A stretch of DNA of 64,000 nucleotides from Caldimonas mangrovi. Its GTDB lineage: Bacteria; Pseudomonadota; Gammaproteobacteria; Burkholderiales; Burkholderiaceae_C. Where the stretch lies: the NCBI RefSeq assembly GCF_023721835.1, contig NZ_JAMKFE010000001.1, positions 310,001-374,000 on the forward strand, written 5' to 3'. How positions within the stretch are numbered: the stretch's first letter is position 1; every line of letters begins with the position of its first letter. Under the pieces are notes generated by a model. It was given only the letters and a program-made list of their open reading frames with translations, searched no databases and was not told the origin of the DNA. This document shows, in pieces, positions 37,645-62,628 of this stretch. Position numbers and translations under genes: made by a program.

Positions 37645-37715
37645 GCGGGTGTAGTTCAATGGTAGAACGGCAGCTTCCCAAGCTTCATACGAGGGTTCGA
37701 TTCCCTTCACCCGCT
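37645..37715 (+). tRNA. tRNA-Gly (anticodon CCC), no encoded CCA
   Basis: A 71-base cloverleaf without CCA. The acceptor GCGGGTG pairs with CACCCGC, discriminator T. The D arm is GTTC-AATGGTA-GAAC and the anticodon loop TTCCCAA reads CCC. The T arm is GAGGGTTCGATTCCCTT. The anticodon stem has one C-T mismatch (GCAGC/GCTTC). After the discriminator the DNA reads CATCC instead of CCA, unlike the three tRNAs at 16477-16811. The 3' part recurs at 51732. Confidence 0.93.
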
Positions 37716-37720
37716 CATCC
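37701..37720 (+). repeat. Candidate attachment site, left copy (in tRNA-Gly 3' end)
   Basis: TTCCCTTCACCCG (37701-37713) followed by CT and CATCC matches 51732-51751, where the same 13 bases are followed by TG and CATCC. The two copies are direct repeats, 18 of 20 bases identical, 14.0 kb apart. Placement in the 3' end of a tRNA gene is the classic target of tyrosine integrases. Confidence 0.5.
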
Positions 37721-37882
37721 ATAGAGGCCGCGGACGTCTACGAGGCCCCATATAGGCCGTCTCATCGCCTTTTGGTGTATGCCAATGCTCTTCTCGTGCC
37801 GCTCTCGGCGGGAGCACGACGCTGAATACATGTGGAATTGCCTTGCGCAATTTCGCCTTGCTCGGCCGGGCCGGGGCCCTTG

Positions 37883-39187
37883 TTACCCAAGCGCAATGGG
37901 CCGAGTGGGCAAAACCCGATGAATCTCGTCGGCCAAGACATGAAGACACATCGGTTTTGCCAGGTAGCCGTCCATCCCGGCTGAGAGGCATGCTTTCCGA
38001 CGGCTGGCGTCATCGTTGGCTGTCGCCGCGAGGATGGGAAACGGTGGAAGGCTGCCTGCTTGTTGGCAGGCACGCAGGCGCTCGGTGGCCTCCATCCCGT
38101 CCATCACCGGCATGTCTATGTCCATCAGCACCATGTCAGGCGGGTGCGCGCGGCAGAGCTCGATGGCCTCGACCCCGTTGCTCGCGATCGCCACCTCGTA
38201 TCCCAGCAATTCCAACTGCCCGCGCGCGATCAGCTGATTGACGGCGCTGTCGTCGACAACGAGAACAAGCCCCGCATCTTCCGCGTACAAGGGGCTGGGC
38301 GAGGTTTCACGGGATTCGACTGTGGAGGTACGCCAGTCCACATGAGCGGTGAGCCGCTCGAGTTCGAGAGGGCTCAATGGCAGGAGGCGGACGTCGACCG
38401 AAGTGGAGCCGCGCGCCTGCACGGTAGGTGACCCGGCAAGTACGGCCAGCACGGTCCACATGGCCGGTACCGAGGTTGCCATCCTCTCCATTTCTGCCAG
38501 CTCCGTCCCCGTGAACTCTGCGACGATGAGCAGCATGGGAAGGCGTGGTCCCTCGGCGTTGCCCGCCAAGTCGACTTGCTCCGAAACTTGCTCCAGTGAC
38601 CGAAACGACCTGATACGCCAACCGAGGCGGCGCAGGCGCCGGTGCACTGAGTCCAACGCGCCGGGCACCGGACTCACCAGCCACGCTGTCACGCCGGCCG
38701 CATCTGGCAGCGGTTCTGCACCAGAAACCTCTACCGCGGATATCCATGTCCGCAGGGAGAGGACCAGGCCCTCCGGCCCGGAATCGAGGAACGTCACGTC
38801 TCCGTGGGTCACCGGGCAAACACCAAAGGCCTCCACTGCGTTTGTCCCAAGTGGAGCTGACTGCACGGGTCGCAGCTCCAGGCGCTCCAGGACATGAGCA
38901 ACGGTCTCGTCTGACGCCTTGGTGCCGGTACCCGCCGCATGCACAATAACTTCACTTCGGCCGGCTTGGGGCGTTTCGACCTCGGCGCTAAACATCACGA
39001 AACCCGCATCGATGCAATCGGTCATCGCGATCAGAACTCGGTGTATGGCTGCCCGCAAGCCCGGATTGCTGGATGGCAACTCCAGATAGGGGCCGCGGTA
39101 ATCCAAATACGAGATCAGCTTCTTCGAGCGTGCCAGCGGCAAGACTTCTCGCGCGCTCTGCGTAAAGAGTTCCGAGAATTCCGTCAT
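37883..39187 (-). CDS. Receiver-domain protein with a degenerate kinase-like N-terminus
   Basis: The 434-residue protein ends in an intact receiver domain (residues ~315-430: VLVVDDSAVNQLIA, phosphoacceptor Asp in MVLMDIDMPVMDGMEAT, ATAND, YLAKPM). The first ~150 residues resemble a histidine-kinase ATPase domain without the dimerisation helices and without catalytic motifs: an N-box-like VLIAMTDCIDAGFVMF lacks Asn, and GTGTK and PLGTN stand where the G boxes would be. A middle segment (~170-300) looks like a decayed receiver. It is therefore probably a phosphorylation-controlled scaffold, not a kinase. The start at 39187 is chosen by alignment with the paralogue at 40248; 39265 is possible. 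Confidence 0.75.
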   Translation of the reverse strand: MTEFSELFTQSAREVLPLARSKKLISYLDYRGPYLELPSSNPGLRAAIHRVLIAMTDCIDAGFVMFSAEVETPQAGRSEVIVHAAGTGTKASDETVAHVLERLELRPVQSAPLGTNAVEAFGVCPVTHGDVTFLDSGPEGLVLSLRTWISAVEVSGAEPLPDAAGVTAWLVSPVPGALDSVHRRLRRLGWRIRSFRSLEQVSEQVDLAGNAEGPRLPMLLIVAEFTGTELAEMERMATSVPAMWTVLAVLAGSPTVQARGSTSVDVRLLPLSPLELERLTAHVDWRTSTVESRETSPSPLYAEDAGLVLVVDDSAVNQLIARGQLELLGYEVAIASNGVEAIELCRAHPPDMVLMDIDMPVMDGMEATERLRACQQAGSLPPFPILAATANDDASRRKACLSAGMDGYLAKPMCLHVLADEIHRVLPTRPIALG

Positions 39188-39346
39188 GGTCTGGATCCCA
39201 AGGATTGCGCACAGAATGACGCGCTTGCGGGAATCGGTGTGGCGCGAAGAGGGTGCCGCTTCCACATCGTGTTCCAGTCACGGTCGAAGGCAGCTCGCTC
39301 AGGCGTTTGCGAGCAATCGGGGCTCCCGCTCGATCGTCCTGATGTC

Positions 39347-40070
39347 CTAGTGGTCGGTCAGAGTCAGCAGGATGTCCGCATACCACGCGCATTTGAGGCC
39401 GAGTGTTTCATCCAGAACAACGTCCCGGCTTCCCATGTCGATCCGTGAGGAGTGGGTCCCAAGCAGCTTGCACGGCAGTGCCGCCGAGCTGGAGCTTGGG
39501 GTCGGATCTCTCATCGGGGCGGGGGCGCCGCTGGTCCCACGGTGCGTGCGCGCATCAGTCAGAAAGTACCCTTGCCCCTGAAAGCGCACGCCGAAAGACG
39601 AGGCAACGCAGGCAAGACGAGCGACAGGCAGGTGATGGAGCGTGTCGTGAAAACCGAGCGGGAAGCCGATCACCAGCAGCGGACTGCCGATCTCGACATC
39701 TGAGTGGGCCGCTTGCAGATTCGCCGGTGTCAAGGCAACGAAGGCGCACCGCACCGGCATGACGGCGCTCCAACTCGATGACGGCGACATCAATGTCGCC
39801 ACCCGTGTCGGTTCCCTCCCGCCAGACGGCAGTGTCGTCGCGGTACGGCAGGATGGAAAAAAGCGGTAGCCAGTTGAAGTTCTATCTCCACGCGGTCCGG
39901 CTCATGGCCGCTCTTGGCTTCGCACAACACATGCCGGCTGGTTACCAGATCGAGCCTCGAATCCCGTTCGAAAAAGAAGCCGCTGGCGCTGCTGAGGAAG
40001 TTTGCCCCCGAAACGTGCTGACGCGAGTGGACGTCAGCAACACGGATTCGATCATGGCTCGTTTATTCAT
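39347..40070 (-). pseudogene. Trypsin-like serine protease, broken by several frameshifts
   Basis: Read on the minus strand, one protease can be followed only by changing frame. It begins MNKRAMIESVLLTSTRV (from ATG 40070). A second frame continues FLSSASGFFFERDSRL then LVTSRHVLCEAKSG, with the catalytic His. A third gives ILPYRDDTAVW and GGDIDVAVIELERRHAGAV, with the catalytic Asp. The last frame (to 39347) gives FVALTPANLQ, IGSPLLVIGFPLGFHDTLHH and THRGTSGAP, with the nucleophile Ser, ending ADILLTLTDH. All three catalytic residues exist but in different frames, so no active enzyme can be made without at least three corrections. The length (~240 residues) fits an unbroken family member. Confidence 0.75.
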
Positions 40071-40247
40071 ATGAGGCTTTTTTGCTGGGGATGCCGGCCG
40101 GTGACATCCGGGACGTCGTCGCTTCTTAAAGATGCTGACACGGAAAGCCGTTGCGATCTGCCTGATTGTGTGCGTGGGCGTACCGACACCTCGCACGAAG
40201 ACCGGCATAGTGCTTGCCCTGTTTGCCACAAGCCGTGGAGCAGCCGC

Positions 40248-41648
40248 ATGTCGGCGTCGTCTCGAACCTCGCATTCCCCCCTGAATCTGGCCGACTTGCT
40301 CACCGCGCACGCGCAGAGGACGGTGACGAAGGCCCAACAGCACGGAGCGCAGCTCTATTTCGACTATCGAGGCCCGGTCTGCTTTGCAGATGCCGACGCT
40401 GAACGTGCTGAACAGTGTGCGGGCGCATCTGCTAGCTGAGGCGTTGAAGGCGGTGAACGAGGGGGCCGAATGCTTTTATTTACCGTACACGCGGTCGTGT
40501 TGTCGGACAGCTTGTGCCGGGTGCGGATTCAAGTCGCCTTTCCTGATGCGGACACGGATGCGACCTTTCACGCCATGCGCCGCAATGCTCGAAGCCATGC
40601 GACAGAGGCCGCTGCTCAAGACATGGAACTCCCTGCCTCGTTCGCGCCGCTGCCCGCGTGGTTCGAGCCGCGCTACAGCAAGTTGCGGTCCCCTGGCATC
40701 GGTGCAATGCTCCAGCTCTCGATGACGTTGAGATTGGCTGAGGACAAGGTGTTCGACGAGATGGCGGTGCTCGCCATTCCTCAAGCCTGGCTCATCGGAT
40801 CGCCGGCAGACGAGAACGAAGCCCTGGCCAGCCGGCTGCAGCGCGACGGCTGGCTCGTGCGCATCTTCGGCAATGTGGAGGCGGCTCGCGCTCAACTTCG
40901 AGGCATAGACCGCGCCCCGCCTGCGCCTGCCTTTCTGTTTGCTCGCGAGGGTCCCAGTGCGAGCGTGCAGGAGTTGCGAGCGTGGGCGGCGGAACTCCCC
41001 TCCACAACACGCGTCGTTCTCGGCATGCCGAGCGAGTCCGACCATCGCCGCTTGGCCCAAATCGGCAGGCTGGAGATACGCAAGATTCCGTTCAGTCCTG
41101 CTGACCTCGGGGACATACGTGAGCAGGCACGCCAATGGGAAATCGACCGCGGCGACGAAGTCGCTCCCGCTCCACGCGATGCGGAGCATCGTCCGCGCGT
41201 GCTGGTCGCGGATCACGATCCGGCGAACCTCGTCCTTGCCAGTGAGATGCTTCGGGTACTGAGCTATGCATCAGACACCGCGGTCAGTGGACTGGATGCG
41301 ATTGAATACTGTCAACGCTTCCGGCCCGTTGCCATTCTCATGGATGTGCAGATGCCTGACATGAGCGGAATCGAAGCCACACAACGATTGAGGCGGATGG
41401 AAGCGCACCAGACAAGCGACGCGCTGCATATCATCGGCGCAACGACGCAGAATGATGAGGAGACACGCGCTGCGTGCATGCTGGCGGGGATGAACGGATT
41501 CCTGCACAAGCCGCTCGGGCCGTTGAACCTGGCTCACCAGATCGGCACGGCGGTGCCCCGTGCCGCCAGACCCTCGCGCGTTGGCGTCACTGTGGCACCG
41601 CTCAGGTCGCGGTTCGATCCGGCAGCAAGCGATCCGTCTCCCGCTTGA
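40248..41648 (+). pseudogene. Paralogue of the 37883-39187 receiver protein with two compensating frameshifts
   Basis: From ATG 40248 the frame gives SASSRTSHSPLNLADLLTAH then LYFDYRGP, matching the paralogue's YLDYRGP, and then meets a stop at 40437. Shifting frame near 40375-40385 gives LQMPTLNVLNSVRAHLLAEA then LKAVNEGA. Shifting back near 40465 gives LLFTVHAVVLSDSLCRVRIQ and an open frame to 41648. That last part (392 codons from ATG 40470) has the decayed middle receiver and a C-terminal receiver with ILMDVQMPDMSGIEAT and a conserved Lys (FLHKPLG); the acidic pair reads VADHD. A shortened protein could start at 40470. The 3' end overlaps the convergent Crp-like gene by 47 bases. Confidence 0.7.
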
Positions 41649-42339
41649 CGACGGCATAGCACTCGCAAGCCTGCGCCTCGAGTGCAGGCCTGTCGAGCAC
41701 CGTGATGTGGCCGCGCCGGTAGCTAATGATTCCGGCGTGCTGAAGGTGGCCTGCGGCTGCAGTCACTCCCTCGCGCCGGACCCCTAGCAAGTTGGCGATC
41801 AACTCCTGCGTCATCACCAACTCGGGGCCCGGCAAGCGGTCCAGGGTCAGCAGTAGCCAGCGACACAGTTGCTGCTGCAAGGAATGATGGCGGTTGCATA
41901 CCGCCGTCTGTGCCATCTGAGTGATCAGCGCCTGGGTATAGCGCAGGAAAAGATGCATCGCAGGCCCTCCACGTTCGAATTCCTGTTGCAGCACCGGCGC
42001 CGGAAGCTTCAACGCATGCCCTTCGCTCTGGACCACCGCGCGGCTGGGCGTACTGCCACCGCCCATAAAGAGGGACACGCCCACGACGCCATCGAACCCG
42101 ACCAGCGCGATTTCGGTCGATGCGCCATTCTCCAGGACGTGCAACAGCGAAACGATGGCGGTTGTCGGGAAGTGGACCTGCTTGGACACGGCGCCGGATT
42201 CGTACAAGGCGGTACCGAGCGGAAGGAACACCCACTCAAGGTGAGGCGCTATGCGTTGCCACACATCGTTGGGTACCACCCGAAGCAGACGGTTGGGGCA
42301 GTATCGAGGACCGCGCGAGGTCAGACCTTCGAGTGGCAT
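41602..42339 (-). CDS. Crp/Fnr family transcriptional regulator
   Basis: The 245-residue protein has an N-terminal cyclic-nucleotide-binding-like beta roll (LEWVFLPLGTALYESGAVSKQVHFPTTAIVSLL, cited in part; LVGFDGVVGVSLFMGG). The long dimer helix follows, then a C-terminal winged helix (ELIANLLGVRREGVTAAAGHLQHAGIISYRRGHI). It has no Fnr-type N-terminal Cys cluster, so it is not an obvious oxygen sensor. The ATG 42339 is chosen by family length; 42390 is possible. Such regulators often stand beside two-component genes in Burkholderiales. Confidence 0.88.
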   Translation of the reverse strand: MPLEGLTSRGPRYCPNRLLRVVPNDVWQRIAPHLEWVFLPLGTALYESGAVSKQVHFPTTAIVSLLHVLENGASTEIALVGFDGVVGVSLFMGGGSTPSRAVVQSEGHALKLPAPVLQQEFERGGPAMHLFLRYTQALITQMAQTAVCNRHHSLQQQLCRWLLLTLDRLPGPELVMTQELIANLLGVRREGVTAAAGHLQHAGIISYRRGHITVLDRPALEAQACECYAVVKRETDRLLPDRTAT

Positions 42340-42475
42340 GTGCGGCAGCGGGGGGCAGAGACTTGTACGGTAGCGCACATTGCGCCCCACGGCCCCGTCT
42401 CCTTGCGCGCGGCGAGGGCATACGCGCCTGCGTGCAGTGCAGAACCGTGTCGCTGCCTCGCGCTCCGCTCAACGC

Positions 42476-42763
42476 CTAGCCTCTTCCGGCAAGAAGCCCA
42501 AGCACAAGGCCGACCGCTGCGGAAGCAAGGATCGCTCCCCACGGGTACACGCGCACGTAGCTGTCCACGTTCTGCGCTGCATTCCGGGCGCCATCGGCAA
42601 CAGCGTGTTCCAACTGCTCCATCCGCGACTCCGCGGGCGAAACAAGCTGCCTCGCCTGCACGGACGGAGTGGTATCTGGCCGAGGATCGTCGTCGACCGC
42701 CATCGGCGGGACCGTCCCCGGTGTCGTTCCCGGGGATTGTGGTGTTCTCGGATCGCTAGTCAT
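42476..42763 (-). CDS. DUF883 (ElaB/YqjD-like) membrane-anchored protein
   Basis: A 95-residue protein with a GGAGA ribosome site 5 bases before the ATG. A Pro/Thr-rich head precedes an amphipathic helix (RMEQLEHAVADGARNAAQNVDSYV) and a C-terminal membrane helix (YPWGAILASAAVGLVLGLLAGR). The tail YPWxAxxxAAxVGxxLGxLxxR is the DUF883 hallmark. E. coli YqjD binds ribosomes at the membrane in stationary phase; the same role here is inference. Confidence 0.85.
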   Translation of the reverse strand: MTSDPRTPQSPGTTPGTVPPMAVDDDPRPDTTPSVQARQLVSPAESRMEQLEHAVADGARNAAQNVDSYVRVYPWGAILASAAVGLVLGLLAGRG

Positions 42764-43186
42764 GATTTCTCCAATCTGGCTGGGTATCCACAAAATCGGT
42801 GTGGCCGCCGCCGCGCCGGGCGGGCGCAGTTGGCATCCATCGGGCATCAGTACCCGGCACCAGCCGCGTCCGTCCGCACTCTTCCAGGGGATGCGCGGGG
42901 CCCGGTTTGCGAGATCCTGTCAGGACGAACCAGCTGAACGTGAAGATGGCATCTGACGGCTTTTGCATGAGGGCATGTTGCCCTGAGAGGCCTTCGCCGT
43001 ATGTGCGGCGTCGCACCAAATGCGCAGGGCGTCCATCGGAGCAGCTCTTCAGGAGTCGGTGCACAGCGCTTGGTGGTCATGGACGCCTCTTCACGCTGCC
43101 GATGTGTCCGAGCGCACCGACGCCCGGGCTCTGCTCGGCCAAGCTGCCTCATCCCGCGGGATCAACCGCTGAAGAGGAGCAACGCG
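42764..43186 (+). other. 423-base stretch without a convincing gene
   Basis: Several overlapping open frames on both strands are Arg/Pro-rich and share no recognisable motif; I take them as shadows. The stretch separates the DUF883 gene from a small frame with a good ribosome site. No strong promoter or hairpin was recognised. Confidence 0.5.
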
Positions 43187-43366
43187 ATGAACGACATGGA
43201 AAATGGGCGGCGGCCCTTTGCATCGCCACCCGGGGAAGCCGGGGACAGGTTCACCTCCGAAGGTGGGGCGGTCGGGCCGCGGCATCCGGCCCCTGCGCCC
43301 GCGGAGAGCCGATCCATCGTGTCGGCTGAACAGCGCAGCCACCGTGCGGTGGCCCGGGCGTCGTGA
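43187..43366 (+). CDS. Possible small protein, unknown
   Basis: A 59-codon frame with a strong ribosome site (GAAGAGGAG, 7 bases before the ATG). The product begins NDMENGRRPFASPPGEAGDR and is polar and Pro/Ala/Ser-rich, without membrane segments or a known motif. The ribosome site is the main support. In this decaying region it may be a remnant of a longer gene; a further 218 bases to the PAS gene hold nothing I can name. Confidence 0.3.
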   Translation: MNDMENGRRPFASPPGEAGDRFTSEGGAVGPRHPAPAPAESRSIVSAEQRSHRAVARAS

Positions 43367-43584
43367 AGCAGCCGCGAGCTCCGCTCAGCCACCGACTCCC
43401 GGTCAGATGGAACTGATGCAGGACATGAACCTCGACTTTTGCCATGGGTCGTACCTCCACGACCACCAGCGCTTCCTTCGTTTCGAGGACGCTATCGATT
43501 GCGCGGAAACTGCCCGCCGCACCCGTGCTCGTCACGGCGAGTAGCGCTGTCAGTGAGTGCAAGCGACTGGTCGCTTCCTGCGTT

Positions 43585-44175
43585 TCAGTGCCCAATGGGC
43601 ATGAACGCCAGCAGGAAACCGGTGCCCGCCGCATCGCGACTGATCGCAGCATGCGCTTGACGTCCCGGTGTGCCCCCCACCGACGGCAGGTCCAAGGTGC
43701 AGCTGCCGCTGCGGTCGCCCCGGGCCGCCTCCGACAACATGCTCTTCAATACACCGGTGCCCTGCGGCGTAAGCAGCCGATACAGCGACTGGCCTTGCAG
43801 CGCATCCGGGTCGCTTTGAAAAAGTGTCGCTCCTGTAACGTTTGTTTCCTGCACGATTCCATCTTTGTCCACGGTGAACAGGCCGACGGGTGCCGCATCG
43901 TAGAGATCAGTGTGCCGTTGCAATGCCGCCTCTGCCTCCGAATGCAACCTGCGCAGTTCTTCGGCCTGCAGTTCGAGTTCCACCTGATGCACCTGCAGTT
44001 CGTGCAGCACGGCCAGCGCATCCACTGCTGTCTGCGGCGACGCTGCCAATTCATAGAGAACACGCAGCGCCGCGGCGCTGCGTTTGACGTTGTCTTCGGT
44101 GTCTCCCGTCAATCGCGAGACGGCACGCTTGCGAAGCTCTTCTTCGCTGGCCGGATTGTTCATCCCGGTTTTCAT
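43585..44175 (-). CDS. PAS domain protein
   Basis: The 196-residue protein has an N-terminal helical region with a coiled coil (ALAVLHELQVHQVELELQAEELRRLHSEAEAAL, cited in part). One PAS domain follows (LYDAAPVGLFTVDKDGIVQETNVTGATLF ... LYRLLTPQGTGVLKSMLSEA). It has no output domain. AAGGGAG precedes the ATG at 44175. It follows the CheB-CheR-PAS fusion gene by 47 bases on the same strand and probably works with it. Longer relatives continue into kinase domains, so it may be a shortened form. Confidence 0.85.
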   Translation of the reverse strand: MKTGMNNPASEEELRKRAVSRLTGDTEDNVKRSAAALRVLYELAASPQTAVDALAVLHELQVHQVELELQAEELRRLHSEAEAALQRHTDLYDAAPVGLFTVDKDGIVQETNVTGATLFQSDPDALQGQSLYRLLTPQGTGVLKSMLSEAARGDRSGSCTLDLPSVGGTPGRQAHAAISRDAAGTGFLLAFMPIGH

Positions 44176-44222
44176 GGGCACTCCCTTGAGGCGGTGACTT
44201 GTGGCCGCCTGCAAATTTCACT

Positions 44223-46760
44223 TTACTCCTTGCGCAGCCGCGCTTCGAGTTCCTTGGCGGTCGTGATGTCGACGAGGGTGATGACCGTTCCCTGGATCAC
44301 ATTGGCCAACGTGCGGTACGGCATGATGCGCACCGAATACCAGCGTCCGTCGGTGGTGGCAGCGTCCTTCTGCGAAAACGCCAGCGTCTGCAAGGTTTTC
44401 TGCGCATCAGCGATCAAGTCCGGATAGAGCAGGGTGGTGGCCAGATCGCTCAGCGGCCGGCCGACGTCCGTCTCGCGCAGGTGGATCACGCGCGTGACTT
44501 CGTTGGTGAAGCGACGCACGTTGAGGTGGTTGTCGAGGAACAGCGTGGCGATGTTGGTGCTGTTCAACAGGTTCTGCATGTCGCTTTGCGCGAGCGCGAG
44601 GTCATCGAGCTTGGATTGCAGCTCCGAGTTGATCGTTTGCAGCTCCTCGTTCATCGATTGCGCTTCTTCCTTCGACGTGGTCAGCTCTTCATTGGCGGAC
44701 TGCAATTCCTCGTTGGTCGACTGGAGCTCTTCGTTGGCCGCCTGCAACTCCTCGCGGGAGGTGAGCATCTCCTGGCGAAGCGCGCGGATTTCATCGTGCG
44801 CGCGCGCCAGTTCGGCCGCTGTGACCGGATCGGCCGAACTGGTGGATTTGCGCCGGCTCTTCTTGCCGTTCGCCGGCGTGGGCACGTCGCGGAAGACGAC
44901 CATCACCATGCCTTCGAGCGGCTTGGGTTCGAGCAGGGGTTGAACCGCGATGTCGACAACGGCTCCATCCGGCTCTTCGCCCAGACGAAGGCTGCGGAGT
45001 TCGACAGGCATGCGACTTTGCAGCGCGTTCTGCAGCGCCACGCCCAGTTGCGCCCGTATGCTGGGCCGCGTCATCACGTGGATGTTCCAGTTGGCCTTGC
45101 CTGCCGCCGGCTCCAGGTATTTCCCGGTATGGCCGTGGATGTAGACGATGTCGCCGCCGGCCGTCACCAGCACCGCGGCAGGTGTGAACGCCTTCAGCAG
45201 CACTTGGTCTGCATGCGTCTGGAGATTGACCGAGGAGGACATGGGGTGTGACACCGTGGTGGTTTCTTCGGCCGGAGCCGACAAAGGTCGACGGCTGTGG
45301 AAGTGAAGCTGCGAGGCATTGGCGCGATTGTCCTGGCGCCAGTACAGGCGCGACTTCGGGTGCGTCGGCGTGAACAGCGCGTGCGATCGACCCACGGTTT
45401 CCGAACTGCCGAGCACCAGCAGGCCGCCCGGGCGCAGGCCGTAGTGGAACAGCGGCACCAAATGCTGCTGCAGCGTGGCGTTGAAGTAGATCATCAGGTT
45501 GCGGCAGCAGAGGATGTCGAGCTTGGTGAACGGCGGATCCCGGCTGACGTCGTGCCGGGCGAACAGCACCATCTCGCGGATGCGTTTGTCGACGGTGTAG
45601 CCACCTGCCTGCGCAGTGAAAAAACGCGCCAGGCGCTCGGGCCCCACGTCGGCCGTGATCGATGCCGGATAGTGGCCCTTGCGGGCTGCTGCAATGGCGT
45701 CGGCGCTGAGGTCGCTGGCGAAGATTTGCAGTGTGCGGCCTGCAGCGCCCGCCGTTCCTTCGGTAACCTGCTTGAAGACCATCGCGAGCGAGTAGGCTTC
45801 CTCGCCGGTGGAGCATCCCACCACCCAGGCGCGCAATGGCTCCTGCGCGGATGTGCGGCGCGCCAGCAGTTCCGGCAACGCGGAGTCTTCGAGTTCCTGC
45901 CAAACCGGCGGGTCGCGGAAGAAGCGTGTCACACCGATCAGAACCTCGCTGAAGAGCAGGTCTACCTCGGCCGGGTTCTGCCGCAAGAAGCCCGCGTAGG
46001 CATCGATGCCGGCCAGACCATGCACTGCCATGCGCCGCTCGATGCGGCGGATCAGCGTGCTTGACTTGTACAGTGAGAAGTCGTGCCGCGTGCGCGCACG
46101 CAGGAGCGCCAGGATGCTCCTCAGTGCCATCGCGTCTTGCGGGTGGTCGTCCAGGGTGTGCGTTCCGCGCAGGCCTGCCTTGTCCGCCAGGGCGCGGGCG
46201 AGGATCGCTGGCAACTGTTCGGGCGGCGCCACGAAATCCGCGTGCCCGGCCGCCAGCGCGCTGCTGGGCATCGAGTCGTACTGGGAAGACTCCGGCTGTT
46301 GCACCAGCGCCAGTCCACCGTGCTTCTTGATCGCCCGCAATCCCAAGGTGCCATCGGATCCCATGCCAGACAGCACGATGCCCACGGCCTGGTGCCCGCG
46401 CTCGCGGGCCAGCGAATCGAACAGCGCGTCGATGGGCAATTGGCGGTGTGCTCCTGACGGGCGCGTCGAAACACGGAGATGGTTGCCGGAGATGGACAGT
46501 TCTGCGGCCGGCGGAATGACGTAGACGACATTGGGTTCGATGGATTGCGCGTCTGACGCTTCGCGCACGGGCATAGCCGTCACCTTCTGGAGCAGCTCGC
46601 CGAGCATGGATTTCTGCTTCGGGTCCATGTGCTGGACCACGACGAACGCCACACCAAGATCGATGGGCGCGTGCGTGAAAAAGCGCGTCAGCGGATCCAG
46701 TCCGCCCGCGGAGGCGCCCAGTCCGACAACGCGAGTGCCGGGCAATGCAGCGAGGGTCAT
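44223..46760 (-). CDS. CheB-CheR fusion with coiled coil and PAS domain
   Basis: The 845-residue protein starts with a CheB methylesterase domain (residues ~10-190: GLGASAGGLDPL, VVQHMDPKQKSML, SGMGSDGTLGL holding the Ser, His and Asp of the triad). A CheR methyltransferase domain follows (~215-480: SLYKSSTLIRRIERRM, WVVGCSTGEEAYSLAM, CCRNLMIYF). A PAS-like stretch, a long coiled coil with repeating ELQxxNEEL heptads (~650-715) and a C-terminal PAS domain complete it. Unlike CheB it has no receiver domain. No receptors, CheA or CheW lie nearby, so it likely serves a non-motility signalling route. Confidence 0.92.
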   Translation of the reverse strand: MTLAALPGTRVVGLGASAGGLDPLTRFFTHAPIDLGVAFVVVQHMDPKQKSMLGELLQKVTAMPVREASDAQSIEPNVVYVIPPAAELSISGNHLRVSTRPSGAHRQLPIDALFDSLARERGHQAVGIVLSGMGSDGTLGLRAIKKHGGLALVQQPESSQYDSMPSSALAAGHADFVAPPEQLPAILARALADKAGLRGTHTLDDHPQDAMALRSILALLRARTRHDFSLYKSSTLIRRIERRMAVHGLAGIDAYAGFLRQNPAEVDLLFSEVLIGVTRFFRDPPVWQELEDSALPELLARRTSAQEPLRAWVVGCSTGEEAYSLAMVFKQVTEGTAGAAGRTLQIFASDLSADAIAAARKGHYPASITADVGPERLARFFTAQAGGYTVDKRIREMVLFARHDVSRDPPFTKLDILCCRNLMIYFNATLQQHLVPLFHYGLRPGGLLVLGSSETVGRSHALFTPTHPKSRLYWRQDNRANASQLHFHSRRPLSAPAEETTTVSHPMSSSVNLQTHADQVLLKAFTPAAVLVTAGGDIVYIHGHTGKYLEPAAGKANWNIHVMTRPSIRAQLGVALQNALQSRMPVELRSLRLGEEPDGAVVDIAVQPLLEPKPLEGMVMVVFRDVPTPANGKKSRRKSTSSADPVTAAELARAHDEIRALRQEMLTSREELQAANEELQSTNEELQSANEELTTSKEEAQSMNEELQTINSELQSKLDDLALAQSDMQNLLNSTNIATLFLDNHLNVRRFTNEVTRVIHLRETDVGRPLSDLATTLLYPDLIADAQKTLQTLAFSQKDAATTDGRWYSVRIMPYRTLANVIQGTVITLVDITTAKELEARLRKE

Positions 46761-46901
46761 CTGAGGATAGGGGGTGGAGCTCCAGAGCGGGAGTATCGGG
46801 GGTTGCGAGCCGGGACCGGGCCCGCGCTATGTCGGCGACCGCACAGACAGCCTGCCACGGGAGGTCCAACGTGGTCCGATGCAAAGCAAAGGGTCCTCTC
46901 A

Positions 46902-47791
46902 ATGACGCACTCAGTCAACGCCAATGCCGCACAGGACGATGCGGGTACAAGGACGGCCACCGAACTTGCCCAAGCCGGCATGTTCAAGGCCTCGGGCGAC
47001 GTGCGGCGCGAGCGCCTGCGGCATCTGGCCGCCCTCGACGGTGGCGCGGTCGCGGGAGCGGATACCGAGAAAGCCGACGTCCTGGCCCTGGTGGCGCATG
47101 AGTTCCGCGGCCCGCTATCGGCCATCAGTGCGGCTCTGGTGCTGATCGATCGCCGCATCGGTACCCAGTGTGCGCGGGAGCGCGCCATCGTCGGGCGGCA
47201 ACTCGGCACGTTGGTGCGGCTGGTGGAGGATCTCCTCGATGCCAGGCGCACGGCGCGCGACGGGATGGCACTGTACTGCGAGCACGTCTCGCTGCGTGAG
47301 GTGGTGACCCATGCGCTGGAGACCACAGCTCCCCTGCGCCACGCCATGCGTCACCGGCTCCGGGGCAGGCTGCCCGATGCCAAGCTCCTTGTGTACGCCG
47401 ACAGGACGCGGTTGGCGCAAGTGTTCGCCAACCTTCTGTCCAACGCGGCGCGTTACACCCGGAAGGGGGCTGTATCGAAATCGACGTCGAGGTGGCGGCC
47501 GGCAGTTGTTGCGTGCGCGTGAAGGACAACGGCCGGGGCATCGAGGCTGATGTGCTCCGTCATCTGTTCGAGCCGTATTTCCAGGGCACAGGGAGCGAGC
47601 AGGCGATGCCTCGCGGCCTGGGGCTGGGGCTCGCCCTGGCCAAGGCGATCACCGAGCGCCACGGTGGGGCCGTGACCGTGCACAGCGACGGCCGGGACCT
47701 CGGCAGCGAGTTCTCGGTGCGGTTGCCCCTGGCGGCCCACGTCACCGTCGCAACCCCCGCCGTTGACAGCAACCGGAGGAGGTGCACATGA
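46902..47791 (+). pseudogene. Histidine kinase interrupted by a one-base deletion in a G run
   Basis: From ATG 46902 the frame encodes a HisKA-type dimer domain with His66 in LALVAHEFRGPLSAIS, then the ATPase N-box QVFANLLSNAARYTRKG, and then leaves the kinase and stops. From about 47466 the +1 frame continues GCIEIDVEVAAGSCCVRV, DNGRGIEADVLRHLFEPYF, GLGLGLALAKAITERHGG and ends at 47791. A G run of five (47465-47469) marks the junction; six Gs would rejoin the frames into a ~297-residue kinase without sensor or membrane segment. The downstream gene overlaps its stop (ATGA). Confidence 0.8.
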
Positions 47792-48258
47792 ACACATTTG
47801 CAGCGCGCGCCGGGCCGGAGGCTGCTTCTGCTAGCCCTCTCTACAAGGAAGGCGAGGACATGCCCTCATCCCCCGCCGAGCCGGACCACCGGGCTTTCAA
47901 GGAAGCGCCGAGGGGCGTGCCGGCGCAGGACAGCGAGGACCTCATGGCGGAACTGAAGATCCGCTACAACGGTCGCCACTTCTGCTTTCAAGCGTATCGA
48001 TACGACCACCTGGAAGACGCGCTTGCGTATGCGCGGTTGCAGCGTGACCGTGCCTTGCACGGCTTGGATGAGGATGTGACGCCTGAAGGCGCAACCACCG
48101 GCGAGCCGGAGTTCCCGGCAACTTCCGATCGGCCCGAGATGGAGGCGCTGGGCGTGTCATACGAGGCGGGCAGGTACGTCTTCCAGGGCTTTCACTACGA
48201 TCACCTGCGAGATGCCCTTGCGTACGCCCGGCTGGACAGGGCACGCGGCAGCACCTGA
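47788..48258 (+). CDS. Protein with two copies of a YDHL-DALAYARL motif, unknown
   Basis: The ATG at 47788 follows GGAGGAGG and overlaps the kinase stop (ATGA), so it was co-translated with the kinase. The 156-residue protein holds two similar blocks, residues 55-88 and 120-153: one reads RYNGRHFCFQAYRYDHLEDA then LAYARLQRDR, the other SYEAGRYVFQGFHYDHLRDA then LAYARLDRAR. Each looks like strand-strand-helix with conserved G-R-[HY]-F-Q and YDHLxDALAYARLxR. The repeat spacing is 65 residues. No family is recognised. The linker and head are polar. Confidence 0.7.
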   Translation: MNTFAARAGPEAASASPLYKEGEDMPSSPAEPDHRAFKEAPRGVPAQDSEDLMAELKIRYNGRHFCFQAYRYDHLEDALAYARLQRDRALHGLDEDVTPEGATTGEPEFPATSDRPEMEALGVSYEAGRYVFQGFHYDHLRDALAYARLDRARGST

Positions 48259-48277
48259 TGCCCTCGGCGCGGCCACT

Positions 48278-48655
48278 TCAGCCCGGGCGCGGGGGGGAGG
48301 GGGGCGTTTCCGCGAGGGCCTGCTTTACGAGCCTGTCGAGTTCGCACTCGAGCGATTCGGCCAGGAAATACGCTTCGAGGTACTTTTCCTGGCGCCCCGC
48401 GGCTTGCCACGCGGTTCTGTCGCCTTCGGCCTTGGACAAGCGGTACTTGACAGATGCGATTTGCTGCTCGGTGATCAGCTTACTCCGCGGGCGACCGGCG
48501 TGGCGGCGGGTTTGGTGTTTGCACGGACCATGCTCCCCTGACCAGGCCACGGCGTCTGTGTGACGCCACACCGATGAGGTCGAGCGCTCACTGTCGCGCC
48601 GGGGGCGGATCCATGTGCTCTGACGCCGGGTCTGCTCGAAGAAGAATCGCAGCAT
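48278..48655 (-). CDS. Small conserved-looking helical protein, N-terminus uncertain
   Basis: The last ~70 residues look genuine: RSKLITEQQIASVKYRLSKA, EGDRTAWQAAGRQEKYLEAY and FLAESLECELDRLVKQAL form charged amphipathic helices. The first ~55 residues of the open frame are Arg/Ser-rich and look like a shadow. A different frame starting at ATG 48531 (VRANTKPAATPVARG) runs into the same point and stops, so the gene may be frameshifted near 48480. Function unknown. Confidence 0.45.
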   Translation of the reverse strand: MLRFFFEQTRRQSTWIRPRRDSERSTSSVWRHTDAVAWSGEHGPCKHQTRRHAGRPRSKLITEQQIASVKYRLSKAEGDRTAWQAAGRQEKYLEAYFLAESLECELDRLVKQALAETPPSPPRPG

Positions 48656-48775
48656 CTCCGCGGTGGCGTCGGGGCCACGGGCGTCTCTCTACCTCGGGCT
48701 CTGAGGTTTGAGGCCAGGCATATTCTCATCAGCGCATCGTTTCCGATGGATATCTCATGCCGGGTCCACATGGCG

Positions 48776-50128
48776 TCAGCGAGAAGAGGGGGCCGGAACC
48801 TGGGGAGGTACTCGGCTCAACAGAACAAGCCCGGCCACCGCGGAGAAGGCGGAAGCCAGGAAAATGCCCAGCTTCGCGCTGCCGATGAGCGGCGCAGCAA
48901 AGGCGAGGTCCGCAATGAAGAGCGCCATCGTAAAACCGATGCCCGCCAAGATGCTTCCTCCTGCGATCTGCCTCCAGCTGAGGTCCGGCGCCCGCACGGC
49001 AAATCCCGCCCGCACGGCCAGCCAGCTGAACGCAAAGACGCCCAGTGGTTTGCCCACGGCGAACCCCGCGAACACGGCGGCCGTCACCGGATGGGCGAAG
49101 TCGTCCCAAGATAGCGACAGTCCGGCGTTGGCGAACGCGAACAGCGGCATGACCGCAAAGGCCACCCAGGGGTGCAGCCCCATTTCGAGCCGCTCGACGG
49201 GTGCCAGCGTCTCTCTCGCAGCCACTTCTGCAATTTGCAGGCTCTTTCGATCCCGAGTACTGCCGCTGCGCAGGTCTTGGGTGGGATGGGCGACCACCCT
49301 TTGCAGGATGGCGTACAGTCGCTTGTCGCTGACCCAGCGGCGGGCCGGTGTCATCAGTCCGAGAATGACGCCGGTGGTTGTCGCATGAATTCCGCAAGCG
49401 TCGATTGCGACCCATGCAAACCCGCCGGCGACGAAGTAGAGCGGGAGGGCCCTGAAGCCGGCCATGGCCATGGCGCGCACAGCAGCTATGCACAGTGCAC
49501 CTGCACCGAGCATGGCCCAGTTCAGTCCATGGCTATATCCAATTGCGACGACGAGGATAGCGCCGATGTCGTCGACGATGGCCAGCGACAGCATGAACAC
49601 GCGCAAGCTTTTCGGAATGCGATCCTTCAACAGTGCCAGACAGGCCACGACAAATGCCGTGTCGGTGGCCATCACGGTGCCCCAGCCGTGCTGACCAGGC
49701 AGTCCCCATTGAAGTGCCAGATACAGCGCAGCCGGCACCACCATGCCTCCGATTGCTGCCACGACCGATAACGCGGCAACCCGCGGCTCGCTCAACTCGC
49801 CCAGCACCAGCTCTCGTTTGAGCTCTAGCGCGACGAGGAAGAAGAACAACGTCATCAAGCCGTCGTTGATCCAATCCTTCAGCGAGCGCCCATAGTCGAG
49901 CGGGCCCACCCGGAATCCGACGTGAACGTCCCACGCGCCGAGAAACTCGGCACTCCACGGCGAGTTGGACAGCGCGAGCGCCGCCGTCGTAGAGAGCAGA
50001 AGGATGGCGCCGGCGGCTGCCTCGATGCGCAGGAACCTCGAGAGCGACGGAGCGAATCGATCAACAAGCGCTTTCGGTAGCCGAGCAAGATCGCGGTCGT
50101 ACGCCGCCCGAGAACTGTCATCGCTCAT
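48776..50128 (-). CDS. nhaA: Na+/H+ antiporter NhaA
   Basis: NhaA exchanges sodium for protons at the inner membrane and is pH-regulated in E. coli. The 450-residue protein has the ion-binding aspartate pair in MLSLAIVDDIGAILVVAIGY, the unwound-helix region VMATDTAFVVACLALL and the late GIGFTMALFIADLAF. About twelve membrane helices are visible. It is longer than E. coli NhaA by a hydrophilic loop (PTQDLRSGSTRDRKSLQIAE) and a Pro/Ser-rich tail. Start at ATG 50128; 50146 is possible. Confidence 0.94.
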   Translation of the reverse strand: MSDDSSRAAYDRDLARLPKALVDRFAPSLSRFLRIEAAAGAILLLSTTAALALSNSPWSAEFLGAWDVHVGFRVGPLDYGRSLKDWINDGLMTLFFFLVALELKRELVLGELSEPRVAALSVVAAIGGMVVPAALYLALQWGLPGQHGWGTVMATDTAFVVACLALLKDRIPKSLRVFMLSLAIVDDIGAILVVAIGYSHGLNWAMLGAGALCIAAVRAMAMAGFRALPLYFVAGGFAWVAIDACGIHATTTGVILGLMTPARRWVSDKRLYAILQRVVAHPTQDLRSGSTRDRKSLQIAEVAARETLAPVERLEMGLHPWVAFAVMPLFAFANAGLSLSWDDFAHPVTAAVFAGFAVGKPLGVFAFSWLAVRAGFAVRAPDLSWRQIAGGSILAGIGFTMALFIADLAFAAPLIGSAKLGIFLASAFSAVAGLVLLSRVPPQVPAPSSR

Positions 50129-50189
50129 ATTCGGCTCGCCGGGCACGGCCGATGGCAGTCAACGCGCCCGACTCGATCTGTCCGCCCTT

Positions 50190-50546
50190 TTAGCCGCTGT
50201 TGACGAGCAGCGCGGCACACGCACCTGCGACAGCAGATATCTGTTCTGGCGTATGCGTACCGGGCACCCGGGCCCAGCCGCCTCTCTCCACGAATTCTCC
50301 CTGCGACCATGTACGGGTTTCCTTCAGTGCAGTGAGGTGGGTACGTGCATCGCCATCTCGTCTAAATTTCTCGACGCAGACGGGCGCTAAGGCAGCGGTC
50401 ACCGCATGGTCGGCACGCATGTTAGCTGCGGTCTCCGCATCTGTGCGCGTGGCCCATCCTGCCCACGTGAACCCGGCGATGACCGTGGCAACGGCTCCGG
50501 TAGCGGCACCGATCAGTGCAGGCTTGATTTGCATGGAAATAGTCAT
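50190..50546 (-). CDS. Membrane-anchored conserved hypothetical protein
   Basis: A 118-residue protein with a GGAGG ribosome site. One N-terminal membrane helix (LIGAATGAVATVIAGFTWAGW) is followed by a soluble part with the pattern AVTAALAPVCVEKFRRD ... WSQGEFVERGGWARVPG ... ISAVAGACAALL. Two cysteines lie in the soluble part. I know similar proteins as uncharacterised in proteobacteria. Confidence 0.75.
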   Translation of the reverse strand: MTISMQIKPALIGAATGAVATVIAGFTWAGWATRTDAETAANMRADHAVTAALAPVCVEKFRRDGDARTHLTALKETRTWSQGEFVERGGWARVPGTHTPEQISAVAGACAALLVNSG

Positions 50547-50794
50547 AGCGGTCCTCCAGTTGCATCAATGTTGATGGCTCGGCAGGTGATCCGGACGCCC
50601 GGCCAGGCACTGAGCATTCGACCTCAATTGAGGCGGCACTAACCAGGACTCAGGGTCGACTTTCCATGGGAATCCCCAGCTGGGCAGTTGCAGGGAGTGT
50701 TGTTGCAGAATGGGATGCGGATGTAGAAGCCGCGTGGGCCCACGCCGACCCCTGGCTGTCCGCCGACGAGCCTTGGCGCGCGCCGAGCAAGCCC

Positions 50795-51376
50795 CTACCT
50801 CGCAGGCAAACGGTTCGCATGCGGGATGGCATCGTCGTTGAACAGCAATGCAGCGCGCATCGCGACCATCTTTCTGCCGAGTTGCTCTGCGCCCAGCTTG
50901 CTCCGCCGGATCATGTCGAACAAGACCGACTGCTCTTGCTCGATGTGGCGGCGGACATTCGTGTCCAGAACGTCAAGGTGCGCGTTGTACAACTCGTCAT
51001 CGGGCTCCATGTCGTCGATCTCCATGACGATCTGCATCGCCACTTGGTGTTCCACATCAAGAACGTTCATCAACGCGTCGTTTCTGACGGCTTCGCGTAC
51101 GGCAGGGTAGAACACCTCATCTTCGATCTGGATCAGCAGGTTCAGCTCGCGCAACAATTCGCCTACTAGCCGCGCCTTGCGGTCTGGCAGCAGGGCCCCT
51201 TGATCGACAGCCGATCCGATGTCATCGAGATCGACGAAGAGACGCAGCAACGCGTCTTGGTATCCACGCAGTACGACCAGTGCGTCGGTATCGTCCGTCG
51301 GCGAGCGTACTCGTTGGGCCTGCACGGGAATGGCGCGGGATGAAGGTTCGTCTCGAACCTGAGGATGGTGACTCAT
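50795..51376 (-). CDS. Hemerythrin-like HHE domain protein lacking one His ligand
   Basis: The 193-residue protein starts at ATG 51376 behind AAGGAG. Its four-helix bundle resembles HHE cation-binding domains: VEHQVAMQIVMEI and VRRHIEQEQSVLFDMIRRSKL supply His and HxxxE. In the helix that should read HxxxE the sequence is LLIQIEDEVFYPAVREAV, so the first His is replaced by Leu. Iron binding may therefore be altered or lost. It lies near the right end of the proposed island, with no partner gene. Confidence 0.8.
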   Translation of the reverse strand: MSHHPQVRDEPSSRAIPVQAQRVRSPTDDTDALVVLRGYQDALLRLFVDLDDIGSAVDQGALLPDRKARLVGELLRELNLLIQIEDEVFYPAVREAVRNDALMNVLDVEHQVAMQIVMEIDDMEPDDELYNAHLDVLDTNVRRHIEQEQSVLFDMIRRSKLGAEQLGRKMVAMRAALLFNDDAIPHANRLPAR

Positions 51377-51853
51377 GACTACTCCTTGCGATGCAGTGTG
51401 CGCCGCTGGTATCTCCAGGGTCGCATGCCGCACCTTCAGTGTCTGTGCCTCGCGCCACATAGCCGGCAGAGCGAAGGACTCTATCGAGTTCATGTTCTTG
51501 ATTGAACCAAGAATGGCGGAAGGGCTTGCACTGAGTACATGGACATCAACGCCCTCGCAGTTTCCTGGCGTCGCGGGCCCGTCGCCTCAGACGCTCATCA
51601 GTAGCCGTTGAAAGATGGCCAGGGACGACCAGCCGTCGTCGGTCGTGAAGAGCTGGTACACAGTCTGGCCAATTCCGAAGTGCGAGCGGAATAAGGTTAT
51701 TGTCAATCAACGGGTTGGAAGGTCGAACGTGTTCCCTTCACCCGTGCATCCCACAGAAGTCGGTGGACTTCTGCGAAGCTTGGTAGAGACCTGAGTGTGT
51801 ACCTGGGTCTTTGCTGCGCAGTGCTCCACGCTTGCGAGCGGCCTGCGCGAAAA
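51377..51853 (+). other. 477-base stretch without a gene; holds the right repeat of the island
   Basis: Open frames here have no recognisable motif. The stretch carries the second copy of the tRNA-Gly 3' sequence at 51732-51751 and an AT-richer patch before it (AATAAGGTTATTGTCAATCAA, near 51690-51710). No tRNA or integrase gene is present. Confidence 0.5.
51732..51751 (+). repeat. Candidate attachment site, right copy
   Basis: TTCCCTTCACCCG at 51732-51744, then TG and CATCC. It matches the tRNA-Gly 3' end at 37701-37720 in direct orientation, 18 of 20 bases. Nothing else of the tRNA is present here, as expected for a partial copy left by site-specific integration. Confidence 0.5.
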
Positions 51854-52654
51854 TCATCCATTCGGGCCGCGTGCGGGTTTCCTGTTCGCTGGTGACACCG
51901 ACCCTGCCGAGACGGTCTCTTCGATGGCGGCTGGCGGCAGCAGGTTCTGCTGGTGGGCCGGTAGCCGCGCTCGCAGTGCCGCAATCTGCGCCTGCTTCTG
52001 GGTGTCGTCGAGGTGGGGGTCATGGTTGATCAACACCGTCTGCATGCTCAGACGTGCCAACAGCATCTCTTGCTCGAAGAAGGCTGCGGCAGTCGTTTCA
52101 CCCAGATGCTGGCGCTGGATACTCTCCACGCGCTCGAAATATTCATTCACCTCCTGCGACGTCTGCGGGGCTTCCATTTGGTGTAGCTGCCGGCTCATGT
52201 CCGCCGAGTATTCGCGGTAGTTCCCCAGCAGCTTCATCACCTCTTCCGCGTCATCGAACGGCAAGCCCTCACGCAGAGCCGCGCGTAGCCGTTCGAGTTC
52301 GTCCGCGGAAGGGCCCGCAGACATGTTCATAAGCAGTGTCTCGATGGCTCGCCGGGTGTCGGCGTTGATGATGAGCCCGCCACCGAAACCAATCTCGAAC
52401 AACTGGGCCGGGTGGAGCCCGGGCATCGAGTTCGGCACGTCTGCGGACAGCCCCGTGAAGGCGACGGTCGGGTTCGGATGCATGGCGCCGGCCCCTGTAT
52501 AGGCATCGGCAGGAGTGGGCGGCGCCAGATCTGCCGCAGCCTTCGGTTGATCTCTGGCAGACGAAGGTGGTTCCTTCCACCACCAACCGGCCGCTCCCAT
52601 CAGCGCGAAAAGCAGACTGGCGACGACGATGCAGCCCCATCGAAAATCCGTCAT
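51854..52654 (-). CDS. Lipase-chaperone (Lif/LimK)-like membrane-anchored foldase
   Basis: The 266-residue protein has an N-terminal membrane anchor (CIVVASLLFALMGAAGWWW), an Ala/Pro linker, and a helical domain with the layout of lipase secretion chaperones: GLIINADTRRAIETLLMNMS, then ELERLRAALREGLPFDDAEEVMKLLGNYREY, and LDDTQKQAQIAALRARLPAH near the end (each cited in part). The canonical RxxFDYxLSA motif is degenerate (RRAIETLLMNMS). Lif proteins fold secreted lipases in the periplasm and usually adjoin their lipase gene; here the upstream neighbour is a PHA-depolymerase-like hydrolase. Confidence 0.7.
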   Translation of the reverse strand: MTDFRWGCIVVASLLFALMGAAGWWWKEPPSSARDQPKAAADLAPPTPADAYTGAGAMHPNPTVAFTGLSADVPNSMPGLHPAQLFEIGFGGGLIINADTRRAIETLLMNMSAGPSADELERLRAALREGLPFDDAEEVMKLLGNYREYSADMSRQLHQMEAPQTSQEVNEYFERVESIQRQHLGETTAAAFFEQEMLLARLSMQTVLINHDPHLDDTQKQAQIAALRARLPAHQQNLLPPAAIEETVSAGSVSPANRKPARGPNG

Positions 52655-52815
52655 GGCTTCACCTCATTGCGCGGCGCGTTGTCCCGAAAGCGTAGAGGAT
52701 TTCGTCGCACAACGAGACATCCTCTGCGCAAACTCGACGAACGAAAGACATGGCGACGCCAAGGGAACTGACGCCGCCACGGTGACCCCTTCGTCGTAAG
52801 CATCTGCGCCGTTGA

Positions 52816-53763
52816 TCAGAACCGGTCGAACCAGGCTTTGATGCCGCTGCGACCGACGGTCGGTGGTCCGAACTCGTGCCCGCCATAGTGCAGCTCCCGA
52901 TCCGTAGGAACGCCTTGCGATTTCAGCTTTTCATGGTATCGGTTCATCGTCGTCACAGGAACGACGAAGTCGAAAACGCCGTGATAGAACTTCGTGGGCG
53001 GGTGGTTGCTTGGCAGCTTGTCCGGGATGAAGCACAGCGGGCCTGAACAGGTGGCGTAAGAACCGGCCACGATGGCCAGCGCGGACCACTCCGAGTTCTT
53101 GTTGAACGTCACTGCCATGCGGCTGGTGTTGTATCCCCCGCTCGAGATGCCGAACGCATAGCGCTTCGTCATGTCGACCGGCCCGTAGGCGCCCATCTTG
53201 GCTTCCTCGAACAGGTCTGGCAGAAAGCAAGCGTCGCTCGAGTACTCGTAGGGAAAAGGAACGTTGGTGTCCCAGAACTGCGTGACGAACCCCACGGTCG
53301 GTGCTTCCGCGGCAATGACCGCGTACTTCTTTCCGGTACCCCTCGGATCGTCGAGCAGCTCATGGAGGACTCGCGAACCGTAGACGGCGCCGAAAGGCTC
53401 CCACCATCGGGAGTCAAAGGGGTTCTGCTGCGGACTGCCGACCGCGACGAAACCGTTGTAGTAGAAGACCACCGGCCACCCTCCTGCGGGTGGCGTGCCT
53501 TCGGGCACTTCGTAGCGCACGTGCCGTGAGATCGGCATACCGACGCAGCCGAACAGCGAGTTGGAGTTGAAGGTGTGCTTGCGTTCCTGGAAAGAACATT
53601 TCCAGTTGCCGATACTGTCGCGGTTGCAGCGCGCAGCCTGTGCGTCGGGCACGTGAGCGATCGAGGCTGCCGCGGTGATTGCAGTCAATGCCAGCAGCTT
53701 CCCCAGTGAAGCGGCTGCCCCTCGCATTGATCTCAACATGAAAAGTCCATGCGTGCGTTCCAT
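52816..53763 (-). CDS. Secreted alpha/beta hydrolase, mcl-PHA-depolymerase-like
   Basis: The 315-residue precursor has a signal peptide ending around HVPDAQAA. The catalytic elements are the nucleophile Ser207 in FGISSGGYNTSRMAV, Asp265 in GVFDFVVPVTTM and His296 in HYGGHEFGPP. The setting SGGYxTSRMAV...ALAIVAGSYATCSGPLC resembles extracellular medium-chain-length polyhydroxyalkanoate depolymerases of Pseudomonas. Several Cys (CNRD, WKCSF, FGCVG, DACF, TCSGPLC) suggest disulfides. The exact polyester or ester substrate is unknown. Confidence 0.8.
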   Translation of the reverse strand: MERTHGLFMLRSMRGAAASLGKLLALTAITAAASIAHVPDAQAARCNRDSIGNWKCSFQERKHTFNSNSLFGCVGMPISRHVRYEVPEGTPPAGGWPVVFYYNGFVAVGSPQQNPFDSRWWEPFGAVYGSRVLHELLDDPRGTGKKYAVIAAEAPTVGFVTQFWDTNVPFPYEYSSDACFLPDLFEEAKMGAYGPVDMTKRYAFGISSGGYNTSRMAVTFNKNSEWSALAIVAGSYATCSGPLCFIPDKLPSNHPPTKFYHGVFDFVVPVTTMNRYHEKLKSQGVPTDRELHYGGHEFGPPTVGRSGIKAWFDRF

Positions 53764-55956: not shown

Positions 55957-56093
55957 GCTTCGGCTTGGCAGGCTCGCCGAGCAGGACTGCCGGCAGCTTG
56001 CCGGTCGCGCCGCGCTGTGCTTTGCAACCGGCCGCCTCGGCGGCACGGCTGCAAGCCATGGCGCGGTCCACAGATCGAAAACGGAGACGACGC

Positions 56094-56885: not shown

Positions 56886-56907
56886 ATCGGCAGCCGCCGT
56901 CCGACGC

Positions 56908-62623: not shown

Positions 62624-62628
62624 CCGCG

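Follow-up and report, generated by a model that had tools for sequence, protein, structure and literature searches.

A probable tandem pair of integrase-less islands at tRNA-Gly(CCC) of Caldimonas mangrovi, with a type III secretion cluster in the cargo

Where does the accessory DNA that starts at the tRNA-Gly(CCC) gene of Caldimonas mangrovi end, and did it arrive as one element or as two? The window, the whole stretch of 64,000 nucleotides analysed here, covers positions 310,001 to 374,000 of contig NZ_JAMKFE010000001.1 (C1; RefSeq assembly GCF_023721835.1). In it, the initial annotation had seen a 14-kb accessory region bracketed by two copies of the tRNA 3' end, taken as the attL and attR attachment (att) sites of an integrative element without its integrase. 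Our results agree with integration at the tRNA 3' end and with both copies being att sites, but the copy at 51732 would be a seam and the right end would lie at 89396 on the window's scale. We conclude, with a probability of about 0.88, that the locus holds a tandem pair of integrase-less, att-bounded islands, modules A and B, bounded by att1, att2 and att3, because of the arm of att2, the core and hairpin of att3, and the synteny of congeners.

The pattern TTCCCTTCACCCG-xx-CATCC is present, as annotated, at 37701-37720 and 51732-51751, on one strand for both. With up to three mismatches allowed, the 20-base pattern had only these two sites in the window, and two matches were seen in 0 of 100 dinucleotide shuffles of the window (shuffle mean 0.06). 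The annotation had named the frequency of the repeat elsewhere as a check; the genome of 5,519,315 bases contained three matches at up to two mismatches, att1 and att2 with none and one other with two, leaving only two error-free sites. A third copy, att3, is an exact 16-mer on the same strand, 25 kb past the window end, and direct repeats of the tRNA 3' end are thus found at both ends of the island. The tRNA-Gly(CCC) gene was also correctly described as lacking an encoded CCA, which is present in the other three tRNA genes of the window and in the tRNA-Gly(CCC) genes of all 12 relatives inspected.

The flanking arms identify att2 more closely. A scoring matrix was built from the 45 bases preceding the second tRNA-end copy in four relatives (G012, G159, G084 and G219), with the core excluded, and was run over both strands of 220 kb of the window's contig (440,502 positions). 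The left arm of att2 ranked first with a score of 29.7, the next best position scoring 17.4, and 0 of 3000 random segments reached its score in a gapped alignment. In a search of 250 family genomes with one mismatch allowed, AATCAACGRGTTGG-N13-TTCCC was found in seven, all without mismatch, and the reversed control of the motif gave one match. A tRNA-Gly-like 3' end follows the motif in all seven (TTCCCTTCACCCG exact in five, with one change in two); G159 and G219 are matrix genomes, and the remaining five, including that of the window, are independent of the matrix. The motif is absent from G045 and G075, relatives with other integrases. Because its left arm ranks first and the motif always precedes a tRNA-Gly-like 3' end, att2 is, judged from its sequence, a genuine attachment site. 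The right arm of att2 resembles the attL arms of G219, G084 and G022 (2, 6 and 2 of 300 shuffles, respectively), with no such likeness to the arms of 15 other relatives, and the right arms of att1 and att2 are alike at 19 of 2000 shuffles. In G219, an attL-type arm follows the second tRNA-end copy (C1:279106 of that genome), which suggests that G219 also carries a tandem pair of elements.

These arms bear on the possibility that one 51.7-kb composite brought both modules in together, att2 being an internal site that it already contained. The whole is bounded by att1 and att3 alone, and two-component signalling genes occur in the cargo of both modules, as a composite would allow. We nevertheless consider it unlikely, given the full attR-type left arm at att2, a right arm like the attL arms of relatives, which is expected at a tandem junction, and a G+C content of 63.6% in module A versus 70.0% for the secretion genes of module B.

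For the tandem pair, the right boundary is att3. Directly behind it lies a GC-rich hairpin resembling that directly behind tRNA-Gly in G004, G005 and G010 (z 7.2, 9.9 and 6.8, with 0 of 300 shuffles each; z 2.8 for G007). In 220 kb there is a single occurrence of the hairpin's long stem, GGGCCGC...GCGGCCC, and there are four of the shorter GGCCGC...GCGGCC. Behind tRNA-Gly(CCC) itself, the sole candidate from a consensus terminator scan was weak, with 5 pairs, and lay about 330 bases downstream. Based on position and similarity, we read the att3 hairpin as the terminator of the tRNA, which would have been displaced.

Synteny places the boundary at the same point. Proteins encoded between 90.5 and 122.5 kb were located in the tRNA-Gly regions of eight congeners (33-97 kb per congener) with tblastn, the comparison having been redone in this way because a simple codon-usage gene caller misread frames in G001. 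In seven of the eight, what adjoins the tRNA, directly or after a different insert, corresponds to the DNA past 90.4 kb here and not to the 51.75-kb region, the site being empty or otherwise occupied. The spacing from tRNA to flank is about 0.1 kb in G005 and 0.3 kb in G004, where the first orthologs are those of the genes at 91.8 and 90.5 kb, respectively, 2.4 kb in G003, 5.4 kb in G001, 33 kb in G002 and 48 kb in G006; G005 and G001 have no ortholog of the 90.5-kb gene, and their flank begins at the 91.8-kb ortholog. In G007, the flank orthologs lie beside a tRNA that is reversed. The tRNA-Gly(CCC) gene is reversed versus its neighbours in G007 (C9:74040-74133) and G008 (C1:1251693-1251764).

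The 48 predicted island proteins (37.7-89.4 kb) had no close counterpart in the tRNA-Gly regions of the eight congeners. Matches at E<=1e-5 were confined to distant paralogs (ABC-ATPase, receiver and kinase, 23-34%) and to a binding protein (40%) in G001, 60 kb from the tRNA. The genes at 37.7-51.7 kb were accordingly not found at the same place in these relatives, and their description as accessory stands, except that the accessory DNA passes 51751. Because of the third copy with its tRNA-type hairpin and the congener synteny past 90.4 kb, we take the insert to be 51.7 kb long.

The view of the initial annotation, a single 14-kb integrative element at 37.7-51.75 kb with ordinary chromosome beyond, accounts for the two repeat copies within the window and for the low G+C and decayed genes between them. 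It is very improbable in the light of the third copy with a tRNA-type terminator at 89396, of the seven congeners that join the tRNA side to DNA past 90.4 kb, and of the failure to find SctV, the type III secretion export gate encoded beyond att2, above 56% identity in the other eight genomes of the genus. None of the eight congeners showed the empty site that it predicted, in which the tRNA would join the lipase-chaperone (Lif)/hydrolase region near 51752. The expected difference in G+C does exist (63.6% at 37.7-51.7 kb versus 67.2% at 1-37.6 kb), but low values run past 51751, with 63.1% at 51.8-56.0 kb. As a compositional boundary, 51751 was rejected, low G+C continuing to about 54-56 kb; a truncated-looking lipase-chaperone gene also lies beyond it, at 51854-52483.

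Elsewhere in the genus, a second tRNA-end copy with other cargo lies 4.5 kb (G002) and 17.2 kb (G006) downstream of the tRNA, and the site is therefore a hotspot. According to the available text of PMC8302735, the DT2 deletion in Schlegelella brevitalea DSM 7029 spans 1,869,872-1,900,850; if G006 is DSM 7029 with the same numbering, DT2 lies inside G006's own tRNA-Gly insert (about 1,857.4-1,905 kb), and much of that insert would therefore be dispensable there. G006 also contains a separate insert of about 10.6 kb (C1, about 1,842,985-1,853,600) between orthologs of the window genes 35259-35807 and 35936-36766. In the family, the exact 16-mer was found in 117 of the 250 genomes, and ten of these, counted from the rows listed, have at least two same-strand copies on one contig within about 100 kb; in G206, which is among the ten, tRNA sequence is missing at the first copy. 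In G045, two tRNA-Gly 3'-end copies, each followed by an identical terminator, lie 183 bases apart and far from the tRNA (C14:128387-128585). Chance matches or tRNA-derived debris arising without site-specific recombination would suit shared cores that are short (13-17 bases) and imperfect, but can be dismissed almost entirely in view of the uniqueness of the pattern in the genome, the left-arm motif, the terminator behind att3 and the same-strand 16-mer repeats of those ten genomes.

Several observations weigh against the tandem pair. All three cores deviate near their 3' ends from the native TTCCCTTCACCCGCTCCA. The left arm of att3 is only weakly similar to the relatives' arms, ranking 15 with the 45-column matrix and 2873 with the matrix's 22 inner columns, and 26 of 3000 random segments equalled it in gapped alignment. 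The right arm of att1 has no convincing likeness to the relatives' attL arms, and its best match, to G005's native right side (3 of 300 shuffles), may be due to chance or to a decayed terminator. In addition, the consensus scan finds the att3 hairpin on the strand opposite to the tRNA but not on that of the tRNA, where its T run falls short of the scan's rule; the congeners have no match for the roughly 1 kb, including an 86-aa frame, that follows att3; in G008, the right flank did not turn up within 20 kb of the tRNA; and the secretion cluster, at 70.0% G+C, does not differ from the host as module A does.

If the tandem pair is correct, two mobile elements would stand head to tail, with att1, att2 and att3, all direct copies of the tRNA end, as their bounds. 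Every integration would have copied the tRNA end and shifted what was there before further from the gene, and the tRNA terminator would have moved 51.7 kb to lie behind att3. Judged by their order, module A would have arrived after module B, which holds the type III secretion cluster. In the relatives, att2 finds its match in the attR sites of elements with Arm-DNA-bind_3 tyrosine recombinases, and by analogy a recombinase of this type probably built both modules. In their present state the modules resemble cis-mobilizable elements (CIMEs), and would move only if some other element at this tRNA provided an integrase. A two-copy repeat within one window can thus mark an internal seam instead of the far end; where tRNA islands are stacked, a terminator displaced from its tRNA may simply mark the true far end.

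The absence of an integrase, as annotated, was borne out: a PF00589 search detected none on contig C1, and six integrases used as tblastn queries gave no match at E<=1 in 37.6-92.0 kb, so that neither the integrase gene of a tRNA-targeting island nor a remnant of one was found by these searches. Degenerate islands often have no integrase. Among the 38 of the 48 island proteins scanned with Pfam, no integrase, relaxase, type IV transfer protein or ParB was found, and the island was not filed as an integrative and conjugative element (ICE). Integrases of the G012 type are present in 107 of the 250 family genomes and were not found in this genome at E<=1e-60; at least four lie directly behind tRNA-Gly (G012, G093, G138 and G009). 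In the four matrix genomes, the integrase gene starts about 0.2 kb behind tRNA-Gly; the three integrases tested (G084, G159 and G012) have Arm-DNA-bind_3, Phage_int_M and Phage_integrase domains, and that of G219 is 99% identical to that of G084. The 76-kb element of G084 encodes a PFGI-1-class ParB (400.3 bits, cut-off 143.75) and topoisomerase III, with no type IV transfer gene among the ten of its proteins scanned, integrase included. The 13-kb element at the same tRNA-Gly in G012 (L056, C1:1732838-1745902) has an Arm-DNA-bind_3 integrase and few other phage genes; with capsid-, portal- and terminase-like proteins, as judged by reading the sequences, it looks like a capsid-forming phage satellite. 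Since the elements of G084 and G012 are of unlike content, the arm is common to more than one kind of element.

According to Pfam, module A encodes two response-regulator proteins, a Crp-type regulator, a PAS protein, a CheB-CheR-PAS hybrid, an NhaA-type antiporter, a hemerythrin-domain protein and a histidine kinase split over 46902-47522 and 47513-47791 in different frames, the signalling genes being partly decayed. Ten open frames in gaps had no Pfam match, nine in module A and one (53414-53854) in module B. In the 250 family genomes, with about two candidates scored per genome, only pieces of module A and not the whole element appeared among the matches listed, namely the CheB-CheR hybrid, the Crp regulator, NhaA and a receiver gene. 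Relatives of the Crp-type regulator (41620-42206) and the CheB-CheR hybrid (44221-46734) lie a few kb apart in several of these genomes, for example, G060, G183 and G265, and the two may form a travelling gene set. Another contig of the C. mangrovi genome itself (G000, C52:5500-7764) carries DNA about 70% identical to the module A pieces 39354-40052 and 40754-41542.

Module B comprises 37.6 kb between cores. Its part in the window encodes a lipase-chaperone fragment, a hydrolase like polyhydroxyalkanoate (PHA) depolymerases, a carboxylesterase, a lytic transglycosylase and the first genes for type III secretion; the module also encodes two two-component pairs, a second carboxylesterase and an ABC transporter of the branched-chain-amino-acid type. 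The lipase-chaperone match covers profile positions 1-99 of 192, and the hydrolase scores 269.2 bits, just under the cut-off of 270 for medium-chain PHA depolymerase; the two genes adjoin (51854-53727) just right of att2, in low-G+C DNA. SctV, SctC, SctJ, SctR, SctT and SctU were all above their NCBIfam cut-offs. The best family of the candidate ATPase was SctN (TIGR02546, 578.9 bits, below the cut-off of 604.75), and it was above the cut-off of the FliI/YscN subfamily TIGR01026; a type III secretion ATPase C-terminal domain was also found, as was a needle protein (PF09392, 31.5 bits, cut-off 29.4, residues 140-203 of 205). The coordinates of the main features are listed in Table 1.

Table 1. 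Features of the tRNA-Gly(CCC) locus, in window coordinates unless marked C1
Feature	Position	Strand	Remarks
tRNA-Gly(CCC), putative integration target	37645..37716	+	no encoded CCA
att1, tRNA 3' end and CATCC	37701..37720	+	left end of module A
Module A, 14.0 kb	37717..51731		Pfam; absent from tRNA-Gly regions examined in 8 congeners
att2 left arm, AATCAACGGGTTGG-N13-TTCCC	51705..51736	+	common to attR sites of other genomes
att2, second copy	51732..51751	+	probable A/B seam
Module B, left part	51752..64000		continues to C1:399395 (window scale 89395)
SctV, type III secretion export gate	56908..58887	+	TIGR01399, 719.9 bits, cut-off 692.25
SctC, secretin	58911..60692	+	TIGR02516, 417.7 bits, cut-off 238.45
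SctJ, inner ring lipoprotein	62629..63381	+	TIGR02544, 209.6 bits, cut-off 161.95
att3, third copy, TTCCCTTCACCCGCTCA	C1:399396 (window scale 89396)		probable right end of module B

Among the best 80 of at least 557 SctV relatives, the closest of the matches listed were from Rubrivivax and from a metagenome-assembled genome labelled Gammaproteobacteria (both 70%), followed by Azohydromonas (68%) and by Scleromatobacter and Ottowia (67%); the best named relatives were mostly Burkholderiales, Luteimonas/Lysobacter reaching 50-54%. SctV at 64% identity or more was found in 17 of the 249 other family genomes. In the other eight genomes of the genus, the best match was 56% over 343 residues (G002), and most other matches look like flagellar homologs by identity and coverage. 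It is conceivable, though doubtful, that the type III secretion cluster is cis-mobilizable cargo picked up and moved by PFGI-1/ICEclc-class elements at tRNA-Gly, which would help to explain the scattered SctV lineage in the family. In G023, G156 and G220, SctV and the tRNA-Gly 16-mer share a contig but lie hundreds of kb or more apart, so that the secretion lineage is not tied to the tRNA-Gly site; this separation counts somewhat against mobilisation. Our literature search found nothing joining cis-mobilizable genomic islands, type III secretion and tRNA, and for Caldimonas with type III secretion its only match, as far as the available text goes, concerns Pseudomonas fulva; no absence is claimed beyond that search.

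Among known systems, the closest at this target are ICEs. According to the accessible text of the respective papers, ICEbph-sal elements use tRNA-Gly(CCC) with the 18-bp repeat TTCCC(T/A)(T/C)(C/T)(G/A)CCCGCTCCA (PMC6563109), and ICEclc-family elements integrate at tRNA-Gly 3' ends (PMC9960961). The congeners' TTCCCTTCACCCGCTCCA fits the published repeat (PMC6563109), and att2 carries the arm common to ICEclc/PFGI-1-class elements at that site in relatives. The island differs in that integrase, relaxase, type IV transfer and ParB genes were not found in the proteins scanned, in its cargo of signalling and type III secretion genes, and in its degraded cores. CIMEs are att-bounded DNA without integrase and transfer genes, and islands are also known to accrete in tandem. 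The present island is likewise att-bounded on both sides, with no recombination or transfer genes detected in the scanned proteins, and stacked head to tail; it differs in having att cores unlike one another. Type III secretion islands linked to tRNA genes also exist, for example, the locus of enterocyte effacement (LEE), and as in LEE-type islands the cluster here lies inside an island with tRNA 3' repeats as its ends, whereas SctV is closest, among the matches listed, to that of environmental bacteria. We therefore read the locus as belonging to a known kind, its cargo being unusual: a type III secretion cluster, apparently of environmental lineage, lies within an insertion with defined bounds at a site that ICEs use widely.

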